IMG/VR virus record: IMGVR_UViG_3300025459_000009
Coordinates: 1 to 52,849 of that record
Strand: one strand, 5' to 3'
DNA length: 52,849 nucleotides
From: a virus
The notes below the pieces were generated by a model that saw only the letters and a program-made list of their open reading frames with translations, was not told the origin of the DNA and did not search any database. Shown in pieces: positions 46,010-52,849 of this stretch (positions are counted from its first letter, which is position 1; every line of letters starts with the position of its first letter). The translations under genes were made by a program, and so were the position numbers.

Positions 46010-47083
46010 CTAGTAAGACCAAGGGCCATACGGAGAAGCGGGCGAGATAGGATTGTATGAATATCCAGAATCAAGGACGTTGCTCTGGGGCACGAAACCC
46101 CAATCATCTTCTTGGTTCGAACCAAACATCCTTGCGTTAGTCAATGCCCTCTGCCAGAGATTGTATTCCATCTCGAACTTGGCCCGCACTTCTCTGATCG
46201 GTGAGCGGCGATAGCATTGCGCGAAAAATCCTTGCTTGAAGAATACATAGAAGTCATCGGGAATCGGGTCGAGCGTAGTGCTCAGTGATTTCAGAAACGG
46301 AACTTTCATCTGGCCGACGGGCTGAATGAGCCACACAGGGCCAGTCTGACAAGGCAGAGGGTTGATTCGATATCCTTGTCCCTTTGGGTTGACTGCCGTC
46401 CATTGGACCGTGCCATCTGTCACGACAGTAGATACGATAGTCTGGTCTTGCACGGTCGGATAAGTCGGGTTTAGATTCGTGAGAAATGGATTGGTAGGCC
46501 CGCATGTTCCGTATTGCGTCAACACCCAGAGATTCCCGAAAGAATCCTTGATGCACGTAGTCGGATTGATGGGTTGCGCGGTTGCGGTGCTGGGATCGGT
46601 ATATACGACGCCGGGGCCGGGTTGTGATTGTCCTGTCGGGGTTTTCTGCGTCGTCGCGCCCCAAGTGCCTGCTTGCATCGTGTCGTTCTGCATCCAGCAA
46701 ATGCGTGCATCATTGTTGGTACTGAGATTGAACGTAATCAGAAGGTCACGCTTGACAATGACAGGATAAACGGGCTTTGGGAATTGTGTACAGCTATAGT
46801 TTACAGCCGTGCAACTTTCCAGCCATCCCACAGCCACTTGATTCGGGATGAAATAATCTTGTTGCCAACTGTTGATATAGAACGGCGTTTCAACCGCTCG
46901 ATTCCATTTCCAGTTGAAGGGCTGGCCTTGTGGCCCGCCGCAGAGCAGTGCTTGCATGACATCGTTTGCGATGGATAATGCGGGAGCGTCGGAGAATCCG
47001 CCAGTGGCGAGGGCAGGTGCGAGTTCACCATTGCTGCGTGCATCATCAACGACATCTTGAACGGTCACACTAGAATTTCCCAT
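46010..47083 (-). CDS. adaptor/tail-tube-like protein 2, 357 aa
   Basis: Paralogue of the protein at 44311 in its N- and C-terminal helical parts, with a different 200-residue middle that contains VYTDPSTATAQPINPTTCIKD and QDQTIVSTVVTDGTVQW. GGAAGG lies before the ATG. The pair suggests two stacked adaptor rings or one adaptor plus a specialised copy. Assignment is by pattern and gene order. Confidence 0.6.
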   Translation of the reverse strand: MGNSSVTVQDVVDDARSNGELAPALATGGFSDAPALSIANDVMQALLCGGPQGQPFNWKWNRAVETPFYINSWQQDYFIPNQVAVGWLESCTAVNYSCTQFPKPVYPVIVKRDLLITFNLSTNNDARICWMQNDTMQAGTWGATTQKTPTGQSQPGPGVVYTDPSTATAQPINPTTCIKDSFGNLWVLTQYGTCGPTNPFLTNLNPTYPTVQDQTIVSTVVTDGTVQWTAVNPKGQGYRINPLPCQTGPVWLIQPVGQMKVPFLKSLSTTLDPIPDDFYVFFKQGFFAQCYRRSPIREVRAKFEMEYNLWQRALTNARMFGSNQEDDWGFVPQSNVLDSGYSYNPISPASPYGPWSY

Positions 47084-47489
47084 GACGAACCTTCCTTGTA
47101 ATCCTACATGATTCTTTGGCGTTTATCAGGTTAAACTCTGGCGGGGCTGAGTTACTGATAATATACTCAACCGCTTTTTCCATGCGTTCAATATCTTCGC
47201 CTAATAGACCAATCGCATGATTACAGTTACTACATAATATGCCCCGAATCCATCCCGAGGAATGCTCGTGGTCAAGATGAGGATATCGAGCGTTATTACG
47301 AGGCTCCATCACAAACTCGATATTGCAAATAACACATTTATAGTTCTGCTGTTTTAGGAGGTTTTGATACTCTTCTGGCGTTGTTCCGTACACCGCCCGT
47401 AGTTTCCAGTTTTTATTCGTTTCAGTACGAGCGTGCTTGTTAGCTCTTAACCAACGTTGCTTGGCTTCCGCAGAAGGCTGATGTCCCAT
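47070..47489 (-). CDS. endonuclease VII-like nuclease, 139 aa
   Basis: ATG 47489 has AAGGAGCCTT. Contains YGTTPEEYQNLLKQQNYKC, CVICNIEF, HLDHEHSSGWIRGILCSNCNHAIGLLG and a helical tail, the complete endonuclease VII core. Sits immediately after a terminator and overlaps the adaptor gene by 14 bases. Confidence 0.85.
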   Translation of the reverse strand: MGHQPSAEAKQRWLRANKHARTETNKNWKLRAVYGTTPEEYQNLLKQQNYKCVICNIEFVMEPRNNARYPHLDHEHSSGWIRGILCSNCNHAIGLLGEDIERMEKAVEYIISNSAPPEFNLINAKESCRITRKVRHGKF

Positions 47490-47505
47490 AAGGCTCCTTA
47501 AACAC

Positions 47506-47562
47506 AAAAAGACGAGCATTGCCCGACCCCAACGCGATGGGATCGGGCCACAAACCGTGCTC
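47506..47562 (-). terminator. rho-independent terminator with bipartite stem
   Basis: On the minus strand GAGCA pairs with TGCTC (47558-47562 with 47514-47518), enclosing GCCCGATCCCA-TCGCGT-TGGGGTCGGGC, an 11-pair stem with one G-U, and followed by GTCTTTTTG. Separates the 48-51 kb genes from the adaptor and tail genes. Confidence 0.75.
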
Positions 47563-48818: not shown

Positions 48819-49514
48819 TTACGCCCGATTCCTAAACGAGTGTAGAATGGTATTGTACCGTTCTGCACAGGGTAGGTTAGCCTCGCCGAAAACTTTGTGG
48901 GCTTTTTCAATCGTGATAATCTCTTTGATAATCAACTGTAGAAGTACAGTCCGCCAGCCGCGATATTTCTCCGCGAGCGGTACGCCATGGTCATCAAAAC
49001 CCATAACCGTATATTCAGGCATCCATCCACGCTGCACCCAGCACGCAATTTCGGGCTTCTTATTGCCGTACTCGTCGCTGTAAAGCAGTGTCAACTTGTC
49101 TGCGTGCGGATGCTCACGGTAATAAACTTTCAGCTTGCATTCGTCGCGTAGTTTAGTGATAAGCTGGTCATGGCTCATGATGCGGCCAAAACGTTGCTGG
49201 ATGTCCTTATATTCCTCTTCAGTGCACCACCGATACTCTTTTGCAACTTCCTCGTTGCCCTCTCGCCAGCGGCAGAGTTCTTCTTTCGTCTGATTGCTGC
49301 TGTCATCATGTACGTTTTCAGCGTACGCAGCGACTGCGGCTTCCTGCTCAGGCGTCAACTGCTCCTCCACCATGTAACTCTCCCACGGTGCGACATCGTT
49401 GTTACGGGTGCCCTGAACCTGCTTGATTTGGTCGGGGGTTAACCCGCTATCTACGGCTTTCGGGGCAGCGGCTTCCCATCTTTCGAGATACTCCTCATTA
49501 CTTATGTGCATCAT
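48819..49514 (-). CDS. hypothetical protein, 231 aa
   Basis: Starts in an ATGA overlap with the HNH gene upstream (49511). Acidic, helical N-terminal half; C-terminal half has KVYYREHPHADKLTLLYSDE and RGWRTVLLQLIIKEIITIEK. Not recognised. Its reading is interrupted on both sides by homing nucleases, suggesting an old phage gene. Confidence 0.6.
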   Translation of the reverse strand: MMHISNEEYLERWEAAAPKAVDSGLTPDQIKQVQGTRNNDVAPWESYMVEEQLTPEQEAAVAAYAENVHDDSSNQTKEELCRWREGNEEVAKEYRWCTEEEYKDIQQRFGRIMSHDQLITKLRDECKLKVYYREHPHADKLTLLYSDEYGNKKPEIACWVQRGWMPEYTVMGFDDHGVPLAEKYRGWRTVLLQLIIKEIITIEKAHKVFGEANLPCAERYNTILHSFRNRA

Positions 49515-49858
49515 ATCGTTAAACCCCTCCGTTTAACTTCCGCCAACAACGCATCGTTCGAAAAGCTGGATAGAACATACGGTCGTCGATTGTACAACTG
49601 CTCTTTCGCAGTTGCCCATCTGACGTTCCCTACTTCGTAACTCCCGTCGTTGTTGATACGATCCAATGAATGCTTGGGTGTTGGTCGAAACCCTAGTTCT
49701 TTCAGAAAGTCTTCGAAACTTTCAAATTTGAACTGGATTCCTCGGCCACCATACGCGGGGTAGTCCCTGTTTGTCGTGAGAGTACAACGAGTTTTCGCAG
49801 AACAATATGCCTGATATTCGGGCATACTCTGCAACCCATTTCGGTTAGCGTAAGACAT
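49511..49858 (-). CDS. HNH endonuclease, YGGRGI/DRI family, 115 aa
   Basis: GGAGGAGCAT precedes ATG 49858. YPAYGGRGIQFKFESFEDF, KHSLDRINNDGSYEVGNVRW and EQLYNRR match the C-terminal domain of the gene at 7481, but the N-terminal zinc module is absent. A different short C-terminal helix (LLAEVKRRG) may bind DNA. Confidence 0.8.
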   Translation of the reverse strand: MSYANRNGLQSMPEYQAYCSAKTRCTLTTNRDYPAYGGRGIQFKFESFEDFLKELGFRPTPKHSLDRINNDGSYEVGNVRWATAKEQLYNRRPYVLSSFSNDALLAEVKRRGLTI

Positions 49859-50050
49859 ATGCTCCTCCACTTTCGATAAGGCTCAGGCGTCCTGCACGAT
49901 CATGGAGGGGCCTACGTTGCGTGGAATCCACGTACACTCTGCGGATCAGGCAGAGCAACCATGAACACTTCGTTTGCCTTCTAGACGACAAACTCCGTTA
50001 GCACTCGAATCGAGCAATAACGCCCTATCGAAATGCACGTTCACTACAAA
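49859..50050 (-). ncRNA. 192-bp gap with four successive hairpins, candidate structured RNA
   Basis: No convincing gene. On the minus strand, in order: CGTTA..CTCG-ATT-CGAG..TAACG (50022-49996), GTTTGTC..GGCAAAC (49993-49972), CTCTGC..GCAGAG (49955-49937) and CGTGG-ATT-CCACG (49932-49920). One pair in the second stem is G-U on the minus strand and would be an A-C clash on the plus strand, so the fold favours minus-strand RNA. No full tRNA cloverleaf could be drawn. Confidence 0.35.
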
Positions 50051-50239
50051 CTAGATATCTTCACACATCTCTTTGAACGCTTCGTCGTTCTGAATCTGAA
50101 TGTTCTTTAACCGGCGTAGGTCGCTCACTGTTTTTCTGAGCCTCCCAATCAACTTACGCTGTCTCGAATTCTCTTTGCGGAGTAGCTCAATCGAATCACG
50201 CAAAGCGTGCACTATCTCAATCTCATTAGGATTGTTCAT
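50051..50239 (-). CDS. small coiled-coil protein, 62 aa
   Basis: GGAGGAGGAAGC, a very strong ribosome site, before ATG 50239. Heptad-rich basic helix (LRKENSRQRKLIGRLRKTV). Overlaps the endonuclease VII stop (ATGA). Function unknown. Confidence 0.65.
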   Translation of the reverse strand: MNNPNEIEIVHALRDSIELLRKENSRQRKLIGRLRKTVSDLRRLKNIQIQNDEAFKEMCEDI

Positions 50240-50661
50240 GCTTCCTCCTCCAAGGAATGACGTTCTAGATACTCTGCGGCAAGCCGACAAAGTTTAGGGT
50301 CGTCTAACAAATTTCCGATGCCAAGATTACAACGTCGGTGCAGAAACTCTCGAAGTGCCAGAGTCTCATGGTTGTGGTCTTGGACAGGACTACCTAACTC
50401 AGTATTGTCAAAAGGTTGCCTACAAAGAGCACACAGACCGTTCTGAGATGCTAATCTAGCTGCATACGCTTCCGGAGTACCCCAACGCTTCTTTCGAGCC
50501 GTGCGTAATCTATGTAGCCTATGCTTCTCTGCGTTTTCAGGGCTGGCTGCTATCCATGCCTGTTTACGAGCCGTATCCTTCGCCAAATTTTCAGGTCGTT
50601 TACGATACGCCCGCATATACGCATTATGGGCAAGCCTTCCTACTTCGGTATTTCTGTTCAT
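50236..50661 (-). CDS. endonuclease VII-like nuclease, 141 aa
   Basis: AAGGAGATTT before ATG 50661. CALCRQPFDN, VQDHNHETLALREFLHRRCNLGIGNLLDD gives the endonuclease VII core, with the first zinc cysteine pair kept and the second pair changed to HRRC. The basic N terminus (YMRAYRKRPENLAKDTARKQ) may bind DNA. Lies just after a terminator. Confidence 0.75.
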   Translation of the reverse strand: MNRNTEVGRLAHNAYMRAYRKRPENLAKDTARKQAWIAASPENAEKHRLHRLRTARKKRWGTPEAYAARLASQNGLCALCRQPFDNTELGSPVQDHNHETLALREFLHRRCNLGIGNLLDDPKLCRLAAEYLERHSLEEEA

Positions 50662-50680
50662 AAATCTCCTTGAAAGAATT

Positions 50681-50705
50681 GAGGGGGAATTCAAGGTTCC
50701 CCCTC
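50681..50705 (-). terminator. hairpin terminator after the Ig-like gene
   Basis: GAGGGGGAA and TTCCCCCTC form a nine-pair stem with a seven-base loop; on the minus strand AATTCTTTC follows. Likely ends most transcripts coming from the capsid region. Confidence 0.65.
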
Positions 50706-50738
50706 GTCTACCGTTCATGAGGCGATAGAAGTATACAA

Positions 50739-51365: not shown

Positions 51366-52849
51366 TTAGCTGATTGCGCTTGCCGCGTCGATCTGGCGCA
51401 TACGGATGGTCGTATCCGGGCCGAGCGAAGTCGTGAAGTGCACACGATAGCTCGTCCAGCCGGGGATCAATCCTTCCGGGTCGGCAACAGTTGGCTCTGC
51501 GTTCTGCACAATGTTGCATTCGCAATTGTTAACCCGTGCAGTGGGTAGCAAGTCATTTCTGCTTGCTTCTTAAAGTTTGATGGACGACTACAGATTCGCA
51601 CGCTTTCAAGAACTCTTCAACCGTTCGAGTCCTCTTCATATCGTTACAAGTTTTACAGCAAGGAGCACAGTTGGTAAGCGTATAGCCTACGTTGTTGTCC
51701 TGCCTATCAACGCCGTTGTACAGGTATACACCGTTACAACTGCTGCCGAAATATTCTTGAACGGGTGCTAAACCACAATAAAAACAATTACCAGAGGTCA
51801 ATTCTCTAAAATCCTGCTTAGACAAATTGAATTCAAGTTTTCGTTTTTCGGCTTGCCATCTGTATGTAGAATACAGAAGGTTGAAAGATGCTTCGCCTTC
51901 GGGCAACGTATTGTTCAGAGAATTGAGTCTTGCTCTCTCTGCTGAAACTTCCCGACGCAAGCAACCACAGCTTCTCTTTTTATCTGAACGAAGAGAAGCA
52001 CCAGTCGCCACACACCTATTTCCGCAATCACATTGGCAAATCCAACGTGAACGATTGTGTTTTGATTCTGTAGAAGCGATTACGACAAGTCTGCCGTATC
52101 GTTCGCCAACATAGTTGGGCTTATCCATATTTTCCTTTAAGGTCGGACTATCGCACCCCCCGATACGATCTGGGGGTCTTCTCATTTAGTCTCTCACGGT
52201 CGCCTAAGCGTTCCGCCTTGTTGGCATTTCAGCTTCCAAGTCAATTAGAGAAGATTTTTTAACCTACAAACCTTTCAGTTAGTAGGACACCGAATTGATG
52301 TTACGCCACTCACCGTCACCGAAGCCCGTATCACCCTTCGCTCCGAGGTTGATGGAGAAGATACCATCGCGCCCGAAGATGTAGGTGCGGAGTGCGGTCA
52401 GACCCGTGATGCCGCTGTAGTTCGTGGTCTGGGTGACCAAGTTGGTCTGATAGAAGTCCACGCCCGTGGAAGGCAGCGTGATAACTTCGGTCAGGTCAAC
52501 CGAGACGAGACTGTCCATCTTCATCTGGCCCACCGGAGTGTGCTTCAAGATGTCGATTGGGGAATCGTTGCTGTTGTCAGCAAGGACATCGCCCAAAGCG
52601 AACGGATGGATCACGCCTGCGAAGGACTTGGAGCCTTCATCGAACGGACGCACGCTACGACCCGCCAGCGACTGAACGCTGTTACGGATTTGGCTGAGCG
52701 ACAGAGCGGTGAAACTCGAAGTGTTCGAAGCGGCCAGTTCGGTCAGAACACTGGCGTCGATGCTCGATGCACCGTCGGCAGTTGCACGCACGAGTGCGGA
52801 CAACGATTCGCCAAGACGATACGACATTTCACGAGCAACGTTCTCAACG
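51366..52849 (-). CDS. major capsid protein, 5' partial, interrupted by a group I intron
   Basis: Exon 1 runs from the right window edge to 52298 and exon 2 from 51522 to 51366; 51523-52297 is intron. Exon 1 is open beyond the edge (VENVAREMSYRLGESLSAL), so the start is not in view. It ends with GLTALRTYIFGRDGIF and GDTGFGDGEWRNI; exon 2 continues ECNIVQNAEPTV, then WTSYRVHFTTSLGPDTTIRM and RQIDAASAIS. Joining them gives an uninterrupted C-terminal capsid domain, similar in type to N4 gp56-like capsids. Read without splicing, exon 1 stops after SVSY and the conserved C terminus is lost. Capsid identity is inferred from pattern and gene order. Confidence 0.7.
51523..52297 (-). other. group I intron in the capsid gene, 775 nt
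   Basis: On the minus strand P1 is ACAU|C-AAUUC-GGUGU with a U-G pair at the 5' splice site; P10 is AUUCG in the P1 loop with CGAAU of exon 2. P2 is CCTAC/GTAGG. P3 is TCTTCTC (52254-52248) with GAGAAGA (52183-52177). P5 is GCC-AACAA-GGC. P7 is GACTA (52191-52187) with TAGTC (52150-52146). P8 is ACCCCC/GGGGGT. A P9-type stem AGCAAG/CTTGCT lies near the 3' end. The intron ends in G. The HNH gene lies after P7, in the P9 region. Confidence 0.88.
51553..52128 (-). CDS. intron-encoded HNH endonuclease, 191 aa
   Basis: ATG 52128 has AAAGG eight bases upstream. Residues 1-60 contain GERYGRLVVI, CQCDCGN and SCGCLRRE, the zinc module also at 4199 and 7481. The C-terminal domain has CFYCGLAPVQEY, VYLYNGVDRQDNNVGYTLTN and CAPCCKTCNDMKR, an HNH core with Asn/Asp residues and two cysteine pairs. 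It is wholly inside the intron and most likely cuts intron-less capsid alleles. Confidence 0.85.
   Translation of the reverse strand: MDKPNYVGERYGRLVVIASTESKHNRSRWICQCDCGNRCVATGASLRSDKKRSCGCLRREVSAERARLNSLNNTLPEGEASFNLLYSTYRWQAEKRKLEFNLSKQDFRELTSGNCFYCGLAPVQEYFGSSCNGVYLYNGVDRQDNNVGYTLTNCAPCCKTCNDMKRTRTVEEFLKACESVVVHQTLRSKQK

Follow-up and report, generated by a model that had tools for sequence, protein, structure and literature searches.

The window, the whole stretch of 52,849 nt of soil phage DNA analysed here, carries at one end a major head protein gene on the minus strand that is divided by a 775 nt insert. The 5' exon occupies positions 52298..52849, with its 5' end cut off by the window edge (52849), which leaves approximately the initial third of the gene outside, and the 3' exon occupies positions 51366..51522 through the stop codon. 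The insert between them, at 51523..52297 on the same strand, is a group I intron that is preceded by U52298 and ends with the omega-G at 51523. The frame of the 5' exon reads into the intron and stops at SVSY (52279), and the second capsid segment, CNIVQNAEPT...AASAIS, ends with its stop codon at 51366. Excision of 51523–52297, with splice points after U52298 and after G51523, leaves a single open frame of 235 amino acids, GEWRNIECNIVQNAEP..., which reads ...EWRNIECNIVQ... across the junction and at the nucleotide level joins ...CGTAACAT to CGAATGC.... The gene is named as that of the major head protein because its homolog in an isolate, Tunturiibacter phage Tunturi_3, is annotated as a 343-amino-acid 'major head protein' and matches the phrog_1357 major head protein (E = 1e-13). 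The Tunturi_3 gene is uninterrupted at the intron site, and its protein shares 76% identity with the window capsid in the first part and about 90–94% in the second part. A search of the PDB for capsid structures found none.

Among the relatives fetched from IMG/VR, the intron site is uninterrupted in about 70 capsid genes. In the intronless relative L076, the protein across the site is GEWRNIECNIVQNAEP and the DNA, GGTGAGTGGCGTAACATCGAGTGCAACATTGTG, is read as GEWRNIECNIV. The ligated exons of the window align with L076, L240 and L321 in a single alignment with 97.7% identity over 300 nt, and both exons show 96–100% protein identity to intronless relatives. The initial annotation had predicted that the unspliced capsid would end early, and that splicing at these two positions restores its C-terminus; the stop at SVSY bears out the former, and the empty-site relatives together with the 235-amino-acid frame bear out the latter. 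Occupied versions of the site were also found: contigs L003 and L004 also have the identical HNH-bearing intron, and shorter introns that lack an ORF but have a homologous core occupy this position in L069 and L070 (about 216 nt) and, in diverged form, in L129 (about 196 nt). In L144, L145 and L147 an intron lies about a dozen bases downstream of the site in the window, the L144 copy being ORF-less with a homologous core. A capsid relative ending at SVSY with no second segment, which had been named as the case that would speak against the intron, was not found; L069 and L070 also read ...INSVSY, and the second segment is present beyond their shorter ORF-less intron. A DNA similarity search with the intron against the phage collection gave matches at chance level only. 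The window intron is unusually well supported, since its site can be compared among full, ORF-less and empty versions.

All of the helices listed in the initial annotation (P1 with its U–G pair, P3, P5, P7, P8 and P10) can be drawn, as can P2, P4, P6 and P9. In P1 (52287..52301), the exon bases ACAU (52301–52298) and C52297 pair with GGUGU (52291–52287), placing U52298·G52290 at the splice site in a short helix of 4–5 bp, and in P10 the 5' strand AUUCG (52291..52295) pairs over 5 bp with CGAAU of the 3' exon (51522–51518); adjacent P1 and P10 of this kind were matched in 22 of 5000 shuffles. A P2 hairpin, CCUAC...GUAGG (52263..52286), is predicted by folding. P3 (52177..52254), formed by UCUUCUC (52254–52248) and GAGAAGA (52183–52177), encloses P4–P6 and has compensatory changes in all seven pairs. 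Within it lie P4 (52217..52240; CUUG, 52240–52237, with CAAG, 52220–52217; 99.5% of cells paired), which has P5 inside, and the P6/P6a hairpin CGG AA CGC..GCG A CCG (52197..52215), with compensatory changes in six of six pairs. P7 (52145..52193), in which G, a bulged A and GACUA (52193–52187) face UAGUCC (52150–52145), forms a pseudoknot with P3; it is paired in 100% of cells, and covariation affects two of its pairs, one in 29 and the other in 8 of the 110 introns compared. The P8 hairpin CCCCC...GGGGG (52156..52176) shows compensatory changes in four of four pairs. By direct reading, the 3' part of the intron contains the P9 hairpin AGCAAG-CAGAAAUGA-CUUGCU (51547..51567), the loop of which is kept while the stem is altered in L069, L129, L144, L083 and L100, and a 3'-terminal hairpin CCC..GGG (51533..51545) followed by GUUAACAAUUG. 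A group IA (T4-like) assignment was rejected for the window intron: P7.1/P7.2 are absent, and with only 3 nt between P7 and P3 (J7/3) it is therefore not group IA. In a core sub-family represented by L171 (4921–5033) and L144 (1282–1389), TTAAGCTGAACCC...CAGACTG replaces TTGACTYGAA...CRAGG, with P4 and P6 altered together.

Across 110 distinct homologous introns, 98.5% of the cells in the drawn P3–P8 core hold standard pairs, compared with 79.5% in column shuffles and 36–43% in slid structures, and double-changed cells number 586 in the drawn core versus 149 in the shuffles. Compensatory changes were found in 22 of the 29 core pairs, the P3/P7 pseudoknot included, and in the alignment (A1) sequences in which the outer P7 pair is A–U instead of G–C also have C in place of A at the bulge; one row of this alignment, L005:3815-3921, has a wrong span and few letters at pairs, which leaves the counts unaffected. 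A covariance model trained on 60 other introns, with the window excluded, detected the window intron at 109.5 bits (E = 2.3e-21) as its sole match in the window, and gave no matches in T4 td/nrdB or Tunturi_3. The group I identity that had been proposed is thus backed by empty-site relatives, by covariation of the core and by this leave-one-out model. A pattern scan for the core motif found at least 119 stretches in IMG/VR and nine in 84,980 bacterial and archaeal genomes, two of which hold the core (L266, from an Acidobacteria MAG, and L273). The Rfam group I model RF00028, with which the initial annotation had proposed to check the intron, failed to match the window at E ≤ 5. This miss carries little weight, since the control, T4 td, was likewise unmatched at E ≤ 1 and T4 nrdB scored 35.7, under the gathering score of 50. 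A match to RF00028 is an aid to the detection of group I introns and not their defining feature.

We regard it as almost certain that the major head protein gene of the phage contains a mobile group I intron at 51523–52297, the splicing of which would give the full head protein. It is very improbable that the insert is instead a group I intron that has decayed and lost splicing, with the capsid being supplied by another gene copy or the phage being dead: DNA cannot show splicing, and the single visible capsid copy, the 5' part of which lies outside the window, does contain the insert, but every core helix of the window intron is intact, it fits the family model from end to end, the same intron is found unchanged in L003 and L004, and the exons remain 96–100% identical in protein sequence to those of intronless relatives. 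Even less credible is a group II intron, an intein or a free-standing HNH gene that disrupts the frame, since, although HNH genes are also found free-standing and in group II introns, and the window has several free-standing ones, no Rfam group II family matches the window, stop codons interrupt the capsid frame within the insert, which is therefore no intein, ORF-less versions occur at the same site, and the part of the insert outside the HNH gene is a covarying group I core, which already refutes all three.

The mobile group I intron encodes an HNH-type endonuclease of 191 amino acids (51553..52128, minus strand), with AAAGGA upstream of an ATG at 52128 and a stop codon in the P9 loop. This ATG, preceded by AAAGGAAAAT, is the likely start; ATG 52185, if used instead, would overlap a P3 strand. 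The encoded protein matches the phrog_374 HNH endonuclease (E = 8e-17) and the phrog_1035 endonuclease VII (E = 3e-15), and a search against Pfam gave no HNH domain or other match. The presence of an HNH gene after the catalytic core, as described in the initial annotation, agrees with the position of the ORF after P7 and with these PHROG matches. A relative with 47% identity lies inside a group I intron at another capsid codon, in L005. Proteins of the HNH intron type usually serve homing, and the intron protein may have the same role. Free-standing HNH or endonuclease VII-type genes are also found among the structural genes of the window (47070–47519, 49511–49870 and 50236–50718, minus strand), as in other intron-rich phages. 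Just upstream of the last of these, an endonuclease VII-type gene, lies a match to the Rfam DUF2815 RNA (50659–50714, minus strand; 33.3 bits, E = 0.001), which does not reach the gathering score of 41.2.

The sequence comparisons show the insertion, its exact boundaries, the conserved core and the repair of the reading frame; from established group I biology we infer the following course of splicing. The transcribed RNA would fold into the P3–P9 core, and the end of the 5' exon would pair with the internal guide to form P1 with its U·G pair. An exogenous guanosine would then attack after U52298, and the freed exon would attack after G51523, with the 3' exon aligned by P10, so that the joined mRNA would encode the full head protein. 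The HNH-type protein of the intron probably cuts intronless alleles, by which the intron would be spread through homing. The suggestion in the initial annotation that the output of virions depends on RNA folding is a fair supposition, and the sequence implies no regulation.

Capsid genes are essential and highly expressed, and group I introns in them are known but uncommon. Since the capsid introns of LittleE and Tuc2009 have already been described, the window intron is a further case of a known phenomenon. In LittleE, a Cluster J mycobacteriophage, splicing of the capsid intron was shown by RT-PCR (PMC3706429). As in the window, a group I-type intron with a homing endonuclease frame lies in the major capsid gene, with a U before the intron and a G at its end, and it was recognized by comparison with intronless relatives (PMC3706429). 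However, the phage and the capsid are unrelated to those described here, the endonuclease of LittleE is LAGLIDADG-like and lies on the opposite strand, and its intron was called 'most likely a group I' (PMC3706429), whereas the core of the window intron is backed by covariation. Lactococcal phage Tuc2009 is mentioned in the same paper as having a group I intron in a capsid subunit gene (cited in PMC3706429), and by this description it resembles the window intron. The td and nrdB introns of T4 are also phage group I introns with endonuclease ORFs; they differ in being group IA according to their record annotation and in being unmatched by the family model of the window intron, which is without P7.1/P7.2.

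In the relatives, the head protein gene is an intron hot spot. Mapping of the capsid homologs (loci L069–L147 and L274–L342; intron loci L148–L273) on the intronless L076 protein placed full introns at about 20 codon positions. They measure about 180–1200 nt, and some contain an ORF of the LAGLIDADG or another endonuclease-like type. Additional full introns lie in the portal and terminase genes. Two intron families are present, that of the window and a second that Rfam matches weakly as group I; weak RF00028 matches, below the gathering score, were obtained for the longer introns of L083 and L070. Members of the second capsid family (L099 2431–3064, L101 3164–3833, L083 2398–3062 and others) have a CTAAATCGGTG... 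core, endonuclease-size ORFs and a 3' end of ...TAAACACATTTG.

The same gene also contains mini-inserts of 35–98 nt at eight codon positions (20, 22, 52, 54, 299, 303, 313 and 315 in L076 numbering). They were found at codon 20 in L069, L070, L112, L117 and L083, at codon 22 in L193 and L219, at codon 52 in L218 (41 nt), at codon 54 in L096, L099, L100 (46 nt), L105 and L174, at codon 299 in L174, at codon 303 in L264 and L339 (35 nt), and at codons 313–315 in L100, L102, L105, L083, L080–L082, L104, L129, L130, L152 and L191. The mini-inserts hold stops or shift the frame, and their excision restores the protein. No core is present, and 23 of the 24 distinct mini-inserts have a P1 with a terminal U·G, a P10 and a terminal G: the last 6–8 bases of the 5' exon pair within the insert, and the bases just upstream of this P1 partner pair with the first 4–9 bases of the 3' exon. 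The pattern recurred in 0–12 of 2000 shuffling trials each, and the remaining mini-insert, in L145 (mis-chained), fits by eye with one mismatch. When the base at the splice site is left free in the analysis, it is G in 23 of 23 strong mini-inserts and A in none, and the mean P1 plus P10 pairing is 12.5 bp in mini-inserts versus 8.5 bp in full inserts. In the pairs computed, the exons downstream of mini-inserts have dN/dS values of about 0.06–0.14, indicating strong purifying selection. This selection and the repair of the frame suggest that the mini-inserts are spliced. Translational bypass of the T4 gene 60 type was rejected because the take-off and landing codons do not match (CCT/ATG in L264, GAT/ATG in L193 and TAT/CTG in L218), while P1, P10 and the terminal G fit. 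Some mini-inserts begin with the same sequence as full introns of their site, as though an internal deletion had produced them (at codon 52, L218 compared with L171 and L193).

Among 122 non-redundant near-complete genes, 22 have both mini-inserts and full introns, 31 have full introns only and 69 have neither (Fisher P = 5e-10), so that every gene with a mini-insert (22 of 22) has one or more full introns, and no mini-insert occurs in the 69 intron-free genes. Among the genes retrieved with the capsid protein as the sole query, to which the mini-inserts of L104 and L117, missed by automatic chaining, were added by hand, the numbers are 17, 19 and 58, respectively (P = 4e-9). This association supports but does not prove splicing in trans, because shared ancestry inflates the P values and intron-rich lineages would be expected to show some of it in any case. 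No mini-inserts were found in other structural genes of the relatives, the terminase and portal genes included; the introns there were all full. The visible part of the window capsid gene, which excludes its first third, contains no mini-insert; in the close relative L069/L070 a mini-insert lies at codon 20. A comparison with the Tunturi_3 proteins, most of which are only 30–50% alike and thus make it a weak one, revealed no other broken genes in the window.

Splicing of the mini-inserts may occur in trans. We judge the chances to be evenly balanced that head-gene introns have lost their core, leaving a 35–98 nt stub with a guide (P1 and P10) and a terminal G, and that the stub is removed in trans by a ribozyme core belonging to a full intron of that transcript or genome. 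Core-less small group I inserts in phages were not found described in the open-licence papers searched. Their closest natural precedents are putative group I introns of 56–81 nt in fungal rRNA genes of Phialophora and lichens, one of which reportedly spliced by itself in vitro (PMC3160393). Like the phage mini-inserts, they have P1, P10 and group I splice sites with most of the core absent; they differ in lying in rRNA genes and in having a reported P7 (PMC3160393), whereas the phage mini-inserts, of 35–98 nt, lie in a protein gene that always has a full intron as well. The closest mechanism is that of engineered group I spliceozymes derived from Tetrahymena, which remove an internal stretch of 64–100 nt in trans, as is proposed here for the phage mini-inserts, although the spliceozyme carries the guide on the ribozyme (PMC4094466) and the phage mini-inserts carry their own.

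In conclusion, the wider family outweighs the window intron in significance, with about 20 intron sites in one head gene and stubs that occur in no gene without a full intron. Were these stubs spliced in trans, they would constitute a natural RNA-only splicing system in phages in which one ribozyme serves several introns, a natural counterpart of degenerate group II introns with shared RNAs and of the engineered spliceozyme, and the window intron would be a full member of one core-supplying intron family. Such a system would bear on how self-splicing introns become dependent on shared splicing RNAs.
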